The notes beneath the pieces were generated by a model. It had not been told where the DNA came from. It made no database searches and was given only the letters and a program-made list of their open reading frames with translations. A DNA stretch of 64,000 nucleotides from Mariniblastus sp. Its GTDB lineage: Bacteria > Planctomycetota > Planctomycetia > Pirellulales > Pirellulaceae. Made by a program: the position numbers and the translations under genes. Location of the stretch: the NCBI GenBank assembly GCA_028823415.1, contig JAPKBL010000011.1, positions 1 through 64,000 on the forward strand. The letters run 5' to 3'. Shown here piece by piece: positions 37,286-39,141 of this stretch. The number at the start of each line of letters is the position of its first letter. The stretch's first letter is position 1.

Positions 37286-37365
37286 TCTTTTCCTTGTAAC
37301 CATCGATTTAGTTTTGCCACCTTCGGCCAACTCATCGTTAAAAAGCAAATCTCAGCCTCAGAACC

Positions 37366-37399
37366 GTCTCAATGTGAGACAAATTTCTCAAAACGAGAC
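37366..37399. promoter_or_regulatory. Tandem inverted repeats, putative enhancer (activator) sites
   Basis: GTCTCA-ATG-TGAGAC (37366-37380) is a perfect 6-bp inverted repeat. TTCTCAAAACGAGAC (37385-37399) is a closely related second copy (11 of 15 positions, sharing TCTCA and GAGAC). The centres lie 19 bp apart, at about -139 and -120 from the predicted start 37512. A weaker third copy may lie at 37350-37363. Distance, symmetry and duplication are what is expected for sites of a sigma-54 enhancer-binding protein. Confidence 0.7.
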
Positions 37400-37484
37400 A
37401 ACTTCCAGTCCCCCAAAAATGATGTTGAATGAAAATTACGTCTGAACTCCGGTCGTTTTAGCAACTTAACAAAAAACTTGCCGA

Positions 37485-37501
37485 TTGGCACAGAGATTGC
37501 A
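37485..37501 (+). promoter_or_regulatory. Sigma-54 (RpoN) promoter
   Basis: TTGGCACAGAGATTGCA carries the invariant GG (37487-37488) and GC (37499-37500) with exactly 10 bp between. It also has the flanking TGGCAC and TTGCA preferred by sigma-54. Setting the C of GC at -12 puts +1 at the G of 37512, which begins the predicted structured RNA. No protein-coding start lies within 290 bp downstream, so the transcript is probably non-coding. Confidence 0.85.
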
Positions 37502-37511
37502 TTCTCTTATT

Positions 37512-37583
37512 GTCAGTCAGCGGGTATCAGTCCCCCAACGCTCTAATCCCATCCGCCTCCGGGGCGTCCCGCTGACTCTTTTC
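37512..37583 (+). ncRNA. Candidate sigma-54-dependent small RNA, about 72 nt
   Basis: From the predicted start at 37512 the RNA enters a perfect 10-bp stem, AGTCAGCGGG (37515-37524) with CCCGCTGACT (37568-37577), followed by CTTTTC. This closing stem plus U-rich tail also forms an intrinsic terminator. Inside, a small hairpin (CGCC 37554-37557 with GGCG 37563-37566) sits beside a roughly 29-nt unpaired stretch, 37525-37553, that is rich in C (UCCCCCAACGC, UAAUCCC). CCTCC at 37556-37560 and UCCCCC could pair with Shine-Dalgarno regions. No open frame with a ribosome site is present. Known sigma-54 small RNAs (Qrr, GlmY/GlmZ, CrcZ) provide a precedent, but I see no sequence match to them. Confidence 0.7.
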
Positions 37584-37598
37584 AATTGACCATCATAC

Positions 37599-37646
37599 CA
37601 AACGTGACCTGCGAACGAACTTATCAGCAGTGTCACGTTTGTTTTT
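37599..37646 (+). terminator. Second intrinsic terminator downstream of the small RNA
   Basis: CAAACGTGAC (37599-37608) and GTCACGTTTG (37632-37641) form a perfect 10-bp stem with a 23-nt loop, followed by five T. If transcription reads through the first stop at about 37583, it should end here, giving an RNA of about 135 nt. Confidence 0.7.
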
Positions 37647-37797
37647 GCGCCTTCTGAGAAATTTTCTTCCGCGGAAATACGTAATCAAGCGTGGCCCATC
37701 GTTTGTTTTTGGTGACATTCTCGCAAAAACACAGTCCACTCCAAAAATGAACGCACTCTAAATCGCGAGATTAACTGCCTGCTTTGCCAGTCAAAGC

Positions 37798-37803
37798 TAT
37801 AAT
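37798..37803 (+). promoter_or_regulatory. -10 box (TATAAT) immediately before the 37810 gene
   Basis: A perfect TATAAT ends 6 bp before the ATG at 37810. Initiation 6-8 nt after the box would fall on or beside the start codon, giving a leaderless or nearly leaderless mRNA. No good -35 element at 17 bp is visible, so the call is tentative. Confidence 0.4.
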
Positions 37804-37809
37804 TCAGGG

Positions 37810-39141
37810 ATGAATAGCTTTTCCCACTCAATCGCTACCGGCTTAAATCTCTGGACGCCAGTGACCGTTCTGATTGTCTTGGTTTACTCTATTTCGCCGC
37901 TGCAAGCCCAGCTGCCATCCAGTTCGAAAAAATCCCTCGCCGTCGACGAAGTCATCACAATTGACGGCAAACGCTTCTACGGCATCATTTTAGGGAATTC
38001 CAATCGCGATGGATTAACGATTATGGTCCGTCGATCATGGCTTGATAAAACCCACCCAGAGTTTTATCAAGTCCATCTCAAGGAGGAATCTGAAAAAGAA
38101 ACGGAAGCGATGTCTAATCATCTTTTTCGATTGGAAGCTTGGTGGAAATCCCGCAAGGAAAATGCAGAGTTGGTGACATTTGTAGATCGTGAAATGGCGC
38201 GTATTGAGAACGAGCGCGAGTCCAAACAGAAAAATCAAAATGCCGAATTGAAACCTTTCACTCTGCTTAATTTCCCGGCAACCGAGTTACGAAAAGTTTA
38301 TCAGCAAACACGTGATCGCCACCAAATGGCTGGAGTTGCCTGGAAGCACAATATCGATCGAGTCACCACGCGATCGATCAAAGCCATCCAACGAGATCTT
38401 GAATCCAAAAAAGTTGATTGGAAAAAGGAGACCTTCGACCTCTCTGACAAACTAACGATCTCACAGGAACAATCAGAAACTCAATGGAGGACCAGGGTTG
38501 CTTTGATCGAATACCAACTCTGTCAGCCGCTTGATTTTCAAGGAACCGGCTCGATGTTAGTGCGTATCGAACCCAATCAACCCAATCTAATGCCGGGTGA
38601 CATCAACACCTTGATGAGCCAGCTAATGAATTCGAAAATGCCATCGGATTTGAACGACCTCTTATCGGGTAACCCGCTTCTTAAGGAATTGGGAATTAGC
38701 GGCAATTCAAAAAGCAACAAATCAAAACCGGAGTCCGACTGGTGGCAGAGTGCAGCAAAAATTGCCGAGTCAGAAAAAATCAATGGTTTCTCGACCGCCC
38801 GAGTGGTCAGTGAAATGAGCGGCAACGACGCCCGAGTTGAGCTGTGTTTCTTTGCACAGATCAAACCAGGTCAATGGAAGCAAGTCGTCACCTTCGAGTC
38901 CCACGCGTCCCACAACGACGTCGACGGGGCCGAGGTCGATCGGATCAACAACGATCCGCAAATCAAGGGCCTGTTAGATATCACCCGCGGCTTGGGAATT
39001 GGGTCAACCGACATGATCGACAAAGCGGTTCGCCACGGCGCTGCCACCAAAATAGCATTAGACAAGTCCAGAGATAAATTCTATCAATTCCTGGAGAAGC
39101 ACGTTAAGCGCTCTGACAGCCCGCCGCTACCGATCAAATGA
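37810..39141 (+). CDS. Exported protein of unknown function, 443 aa
   Basis: A signal peptide is visible (hydrophobic VTVLIVLVYSISPLQA, with likely cleavage near Ala34-Gln35). The mature protein begins with a short strand-rich part (AVDEVITIDGKRFYGIIL), followed by long charged helices (about 90-190, EARNER- and KEE-like). The second half is mixed (about 210-443), with VALIEYQLCQPLDF, a GSMLVRIEPNQPN strand and VELCFFAQIKPGQWKQVVTFES. I recognise no family and no catalytic motif. The early part could be a small SH3-like segment, as seen in other planctomycete exported proteins; this is a guess. The gene is preceded by TATAAT and by the candidate small-RNA unit, and ends near a palindromic hairpin shared with the convergent PhyH gene. 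Confidence 0.7.
   Translation: MNSFSHSIATGLNLWTPVTVLIVLVYSISPLQAQLPSSSKKSLAVDEVITIDGKRFYGIILGNSNRDGLTIMVRRSWLDKTHPEFYQVHLKEESEKETEAMSNHLFRLEAWWKSRKENAELVTFVDREMARIENERESKQKNQNAELKPFTLLNFPATELRKVYQQTRDRHQMAGVAWKHNIDRVTTRSIKAIQRDLESKKVDWKKETFDLSDKLTISQEQSETQWRTRVALIEYQLCQPLDFQGTGSMLVRIEPNQPNLMPGDINTLMSQLMNSKMPSDLNDLLSGNPLLKELGISGNSKSNKSKPESDWWQSAAKIAESEKINGFSTARVVSEMSGNDARVELCFFAQIKPGQWKQVVTFESHASHNDVDGAEVDRINNDPQIKGLLDITRGLGIGSTDMIDKAVRHGAATKIALDKSRDKFYQFLEKHVKRSDSPPLPIK

Follow-up and report, generated by a model that had tools for sequence, protein, structure and literature searches.

The window, meaning the whole 64-kb stretch of DNA analysed here, carries a predicted small RNA (sRNA) that belongs to a conserved, multi-copy, sigma-54-linked family, and this family is absent from Rfam, the RNA library searched. 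Sequence comparison showed a promoter at a fixed place, activator palindromes upstream of it, a covarying hairpin near the predicted start, an open loop and, in most members, a terminator. It is very probable that the locus specifies a real sigma-54-dependent sRNA. This was the overall interpretation of a first-pass annotation of the same DNA, and it is supported by the comparisons presented below. That annotation overlooked the predicted 3' end, the upstream boxes, the conserved pyrimidine-rich loop, which is probably the active part, and a sister copy on contig C171.

The predicted RNA and its sigma-54 promoter

The sigma-54 promoter TTGGCACAGAGATTGCA is located at 37485-37501 on the forward strand. 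Its GG (37487-37488), its GC (37499-37500) and the +1 predicted from them (37512) are as first annotated. The element is of the -24/-12, TTGGCAC-N5-TTGCA type. The string TTGGCA-N7-TGC has a single occurrence in the window, and three TGGCA-N7-TTGC strings were found elsewhere in the same scan. Throughout the genome, TTGGCAYN5TTGC occurs 27 times, some of them intragenic, versus 4 times for the reversed pattern.

The predicted RNA, copy A, spans approximately 135 nt (37512-37646, forward strand), both ends being predicted from sequence. Its hairpin domain (37515-37577) contains the perfect 10-bp stem P1 (37515-37524/37568-37577), already described in the first-pass annotation, and a second stem P2 (37530-37534/37561-37565), with strong covariation in P1 and weaker covariation in P2. 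The stems enclose a pyrimidine-rich loop, AACGCTCTAATCCCATCCGCCTCC (37537-37560), identified as conserved by comparison with relatives. The RNA had been proposed to end near 37583, directly after a CTTTTC that follows P1. The CTTTTC is present at 37578-37583, but it is not the RNA end: a linker follows, and conservation extends to a terminator-like hairpin of 14 bp with a U tract at 37599-37646, which is kept in relatives and makes the predicted RNA longer than proposed. This hairpin was not listed by the automated terminator scan because that scan admits only loops of 3-8 bases and the loop here has 14. Another terminator-like hairpin, at 37686-37705, lies 3' of the RNA; it has a T run that is partly retained in close relatives. 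The predicted fold of a 72-nt segment has an energy of -26.7 kcal/mol, versus -15.2 +/- 2.35 in shuffled sequences (z -4.89; 0/200 as low), and that of the 138-nt segment 37512-37649 has an energy of -47.6 (z -5.62).

The association between promoter and RNA was examined with two models, R1 (RNA) and R2 (hairpin alone). As both were built without promoter columns, the co-occurrence test is not circular. R2 yielded 49 matches in 241 family genomes, with readable upstream sequence in 47; two contig-end matches (G003:C24 and G102:C25) are outside the promoter count. In 42 of these 47 matches, and in 34/35 of those at E <= 1e-6, TGG[C/T]A-N7-TGC stood at the corresponding position, so that these 42 retain the GG/GC pair proposed for the window. 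The bases separating GG from GC vary among the promoter-bearing members, and every one of the 42 has its first paired base between +1 and +6. The five promoter-less matches comprise L043, the second of two tandem copies, and four weak matches (G020:C6, G180, G081 and G096) that also lack the loop and were judged false, although they are counted as misses in 42/47. The invariant promoter columns of alignment A3, described below, restate this result and are no additional evidence.

Distribution, sibling copies and structural conservation

A blastn search with 37440-37660 as query found strong matches in 10 of the 27 other genomes of the genus. In the aligned relatives, TTGGCAC, TTGC, the stem, the loop and the terminator are kept, while the leader and the inter-box bases vary. 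R1 matched 22/28 genus genomes and 26/241 family genomes, one of the 26 (G197) being judged false. R2 matched 33/241 family genomes at E <= 0.05, including 24/28 in the genus, and also gave a second set of weaker matches; three of the 33 (G081, G096 and G180) were judged false. With G026 and G010, which were added through the box and promoter pattern described below, members are present in 26 of the 28 genus genomes; no member was found in G015 and G023, which are 84% and 71% complete. Outside the genus, members were identified in G102, G104, G118, G119 and G133, with weaker ones in G083 (22 bits) and G084 (R3 only), a total of seven genomes from five genera of Pirellulaceae.

Model R3, in which the promoter is included, matched 24/396 order genomes and 6/392 phylum genomes. 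Neither the other families of the order nor the phylum sample yielded a convincing member with R3. The loop is not present in the matches from G091, G092, G111, G267, G370, G351, G400, G477, G409, G283, G575, G622 and G816, which were rejected. The match in G084 resembles type C, and that in G701 has promoter and stem with a different loop. At this last locus (L304; G701:C123:6684-6807), from another family of the same phylum, a sigma-54 promoter directly precedes a GTGAGCGGG...CCCGCTCAC hairpin whose C-rich loop is a different one, together with a terminator-like hairpin; the RNA may be an analogue or a very remote relative. In the sequence upstream of the R3 match at L294 (G400:C27), also from another family, TTGGCACAGCTCTTGC is followed by a hairpin, after which a short leader runs up to a start codon, an arrangement that reads as a sigma-54 promoter with a hairpin within a predicted mRNA leader. 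In a loose contig scan, 6 of 80 loci among the matches listed exceeded 30 bits with R2, and the others scored <=18.2.

The family occurs as siblings. The window genome has two copies, A in the window and B on C171 (C171:7579-7660), and relatives contain one to three sister copies per genome. A third type, C, with a different loop, was found in G027, G003, G004 and probably G084. G005 carries three type-A copies, two of them in tandem. Counting the copies read, at least 16 of the 28 genus genomes have two or more, 10 show one and 2 show none.

In the eight closest genomes, own included, the type-A locus lies between an enoyl-CoA hydratase gene and the gene at 37810. The latter (37810-39141) encodes a 443-aa protein without a Pfam match and with 73-81% identity in the seven other closest genomes. 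Since the RNA is oriented towards this gene, which comes next in all eight, it might be a cis-acting leader, riboswitch or attenuator for it. We regard this as very improbable: the terminator-like hairpin stands between the RNA and the gene, and of the 19 non-core type-A loci, which are more distant, 15 were examined and 11 of these have the next ORF (>=120 codons) on the opposite strand, which argues against a leader of the downstream gene. Proteins related to the SelR (methionine sulfoxide reductase) and VTT-domain proteins of the window are found among the neighbours of the more distant type-A loci, and their recurrence indicates that the genomic place is partly kept. By its layout, the RNA is predicted to be an independent transcript untied to a neighbouring gene.

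Alignment A3 contains 35 rows from the 42 promoter-bearing members, 7 near-identical ones being omitted. The stem proposed in the first-pass annotation covaries among relatives: the covariation score is 0.356 in A3, versus 0.205 when shuffled (0/500) and <=0.142 with partners slid, and 0.372 in A2 (27 rows) versus 0.204 in shuffles, both scores being favoured because the structures were drawn from the alignments on which they were scored. In A3, 88.2% of cells pair, and changes on both sides occur in 11/13 pairs. P1 pairs in 94.9% of cells, and P2 in 77.5% for three pairs and 45.8% for the fourth. In A2, further pair types are no more numerous than in shuffles (249/500). The type-A row of G018 has a predicted fold that differs from the family hairpin. 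A terminator was recognised by a crude test in 35/42 members and was absent in seven.

Within type A the loop is almost letter-for-letter constant while the stems vary: AACGCTCTAATCCCATCCGCCTCC is identical in the eight closest genomes, and TCCGC is retained in 27/27 type-A rows. This pattern suggests that the loop is probably the active part. Loops differ between types A, B and C. Similar CU-rich motifs are shared by the siblings, and 3' of the stem type B contains another AUCCNGCC-like stretch.

Upstream boxes and candidate activators

Two exact copies of the palindrome TCTC-N5-GAGAC are located upstream of copy A on the forward strand. Box 1, TCTCAATGTGAGAC, is at 37367-37380, 118 bp upstream of TTGG, and box 2, TCTCAAAACGAGAC, is at 37386-37399, 19 bp from box 1. 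A second box at 19 bp from the first is found in many relatives, in most of them with 1-2 mismatches. Within 250 bp upstream of the promoter, a box is present exactly in 33/42 members, with <=1 mismatch in 41/42 and with <=2 mismatches in 42/42 (two members having shorter upstream sequence), versus 0.05%, 2.1% and 21.8% of shuffled upstream sequences. In 34/42 members a box with <=1 mismatch lies within 140 bp, and in the remaining ones boxes sit further upstream. The exact box nearest to the promoter lies 75 to 173 bp away, at 14 distinct distances. These distances cluster near a period of 11 bp (mean vector 0.80 at 11, 0.57 at 10.5), this being the best of seven periods tried with kinship among genomes ignored. 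A spacing of about 11 bp would be expected if the activator had to occupy one face of the DNA.

The combined pattern of exact box and promoter was found at 30 sites in 16/28 genus genomes. The reversed control gave none in the 28 genomes. Hairpins of the family kind stand behind 27 of the 30 sites: 22 of the sites are type A or B model matches, and five of the eight others (L327, L328, L344, L337 and L352) carry family-type hairpins by reading, L344 being cut by a contig end and possibly duplicating another contig. GG-N10-GC by itself is frequent by chance, and the locus could in principle comprise DNA elements only, namely a chance promoter-like string beside a terminator-like repeat. With members of the same architecture in 26/28 genus genomes and the reversed pattern absent, we give this explanation hardly any weight.

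The three remaining sites (L345, G000:C135; L351, G019:C185; L350, G018:C19) precede genes for secreted proteins. A CARDB domain is present in one of these proteins. The other two are small, secreted and orthologous to each other, and their repeated AIEYGLIA-type stretches resemble Flp pilin; the one scanned of this pair gave a Flp/Fap match below the cut-off. Sigma-54-type promoters also precede genes elsewhere in the window genome, at 40-320 nt before the first Met, at seven loci (L220, L239, L219, L222, L221, L241 and L240) that encode HSP70 (DnaK), Cpn60, SecA, an OmpH-like protein, a MoxR-type AAA protein, Usp and a sigma-70-type factor.

Such genes lend some plausibility to the idea that the family transcript is a small mRNA encoding a short protein, as sigma-54-type promoters of the same genome and three box-bearing sites of the genus do precede real genes. 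However, its base pairing is conserved, single-base gaps occur close to the loop among close relatives, and a start codon with a ribosome site is not obvious by eye, which makes a coding function most unlikely.

The TCTC-N5-GAGAC box was not found within 200 bp of the promoters at the seven loci (DnaK, Cpn60, SecA and others). These box-less promoters perhaps represent a sigma-54 stress regulon of their own. In Planctomycetia, sigma-54 has been predicted to control chaperones and universal stress proteins (PMC12316311), and the occurrence of TTGGCAYN5TTGC upstream of the DnaK, Cpn60, SecA and Usp genes indicates that the window genome agrees with that prediction.

The first-pass annotation had suggested control by an enhancer-binding protein, and the conserved palindrome upstream of the promoter lends support to this. 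We infer that an activator protein binds the TCTC-N5-GAGAC boxes. Twelve strong sigma-54 activator domains are encoded in the window genome, and the box is absent within 250 bp upstream of the ORF in all 12 activator genes.

Mode of action and relation to known regulatory RNAs

It is likely that the sRNA acts in trans through its loop, and base pairing with mRNA has about an even chance of being the way in which it does so. We moderately favour the reading of a trans-acting sRNA of approximately 135 nt, one of two siblings in this genome, which is controlled by an activator and whose loop would pair with mRNAs without Hfq. Under this reading, one enhancer-binding protein would bind TCTC-N5-GAGAC and switch on the siblings together, so that they would sum to one output; envelope or protein stress is a guess at the triggering signal. 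The RNA would then display its loop, pair with a small set of mRNAs independently of Hfq and repress them, which is the least certain step.

Pairing independent of Hfq is preferred because Hfq passes the cut-off in 0/28 genus genomes, two weak matches (E 0.011 and 0.098) falling short of it, in a search whose control was positive in 5/14 known genomes, E. coli and B. subtilis included.

Candidate targets were searched with the reverse complement of the loop (17-mer, <=3 mismatches) in the eight close genomes. The search gave 132 matches, of which 8 are the RNA itself, versus 59 for the reversed pattern. The regions read numbered 38, comprising all 18 other matches of the window genome and 20 from the other seven genomes; some matches beyond these 38 recur in two genomes. 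No site at a gene start was found among the 38 regions by the first-ATG rule, the nearest being 44 nt inside an ORF (L411), and in 6/38 regions the strand concerned lacks an ORF of 90 codons. The sole string present in 6/8 genomes lies 333 nt within a gene. Thus, none of the 38 regions offered a convincing mRNA target by loop complementarity.

Anti-Shine-Dalgarno pairing was evaluated by computing duplex energies for each of the two loops at 510 gene starts from 0.86 Mb of the window genome, window included; the test is rough, every start being simply the first ATG of its ORF. Such pairing is unsupported for type A, where 28/30 shuffled loops were as start-biased or more, and the signal for type B is weak (1/30 shuffles by mean energy, 7/30 by strong sites). 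Feedback on an activator gene of the Qrr/luxO kind was also rejected: at L318, one of the 12 loci with an activator gene, a duplex of -19.6 kcal/mol was predicted near the first start, but it is interrupted, and stronger duplexes occur elsewhere in these loci.

The same target searches, which yielded no mRNA, are compatible with a protein decoy, that is, a sigma-54-controlled RNA whose loop would titrate an RNA-binding protein, like CrcZ or CsrB. The near-constant type-A loop on varying stems, the similar CU-rich motifs of the siblings and the second AUCCNGCC-like stretch of type B would also suit such a role. Against a decoy, the loops differ from one type to another, and each RNA has only one or two motifs, fewer than typical sponges. 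We hold a decoy with a putative protein partner to be the main rival of mRNA pairing, possible but less likely than not.

For the circuit as a whole, the evidence is evenly poised on a dedicated sigma-54 activator whose regulon would consist mainly of one to three sibling RNAs. As 27/30 box and promoter sites lead to such RNAs, the signal would be passed chiefly via their loops, by Hfq-independent pairing or as a decoy, and the same balance applies to the claim that pairing or decoy of such kind is not yet described in Planctomycetes. If the family is what it is read to be, it would offer a sigma-54 sRNA circuit that can be tested outside Proteobacteria and that combines siblings and activator boxes with an apparent lack of Hfq, and it would open the question of how multi-copy sRNAs function without the Hfq chaperone.

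Regulatory sRNAs of Planctomycetes have received little study; a table of a 2022 review gives 8 for the PVC group as a whole versus 345 for Proteobacteria, with the unit unstated (PMC9029176). The terms 'sRNA', 'small RNA' and 'non-coding' do not occur in the main text of a sigma-54 regulon survey from 2025 in which Planctomycetia are covered (PMC12316311). No description of the family was found in titles and abstract starts among the matches listed in the literature, which is weak evidence of absence. The Rhodopirellula-1 motif, which is listed without an Rfam number (PMC2864571), may coincide with the family.

Neither the window nor 17 relatives gave a match to Rfam 15 at the gathering score, which favours the first-pass reading, and at E <= 10 only two chance snoRNA matches were found in 37350-37820. 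Qrr, GlmY/GlmZ and CrcZ were included, and the early view that the locus is unrelated to them in sequence agrees with this result. The family is apparently a new set of predicted sigma-54-driven sibling sRNAs, newness being relative to Rfam.

CrcZ and CrcY of Pseudomonas are sigma-54-driven RNAs with unpaired motifs, and CrcZ sequesters Hfq via A-rich motifs. The RNA described here is likewise predicted to be sigma-54-driven and to have an unpaired motif, but its loop is pyrimidine-rich (CU-rich by inspection) rather than A-rich, and no Hfq above the cut-off was found in the genus. For RNAIII of Staphylococcus and sX13 of Xanthomonas, we know of no sigma-54 control. Both resemble the family in their C-rich hairpin loops (PMC2837412, PMC3771888), whereas no bias towards start regions was seen for the type-A loop. 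GlmY and GlmZ of enterobacteria are, like the family, paired sibling sRNAs under sigma-54 (PMC7073468). They differ in that an Rfam match is absent here and that both siblings in the window genome share a single box type.

The Qrr RNAs of Vibrio, controlled by sigma-54 and LuxO, are several sibling sRNAs, every one of which has a sigma-54 promoter and an activator site to itself. The family resembles them in having multiple siblings per genome, each with its own predicted sigma-54 promoter and activator box. As no Rfam match was found, there is no detectable sequence relation to Qrr, and the family further differs in its long hairpin with a CU-rich loop and in the Hfq result for the 28 genus genomes. 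By analogy, the family appears to work like the Qrr set while not being a member of it.
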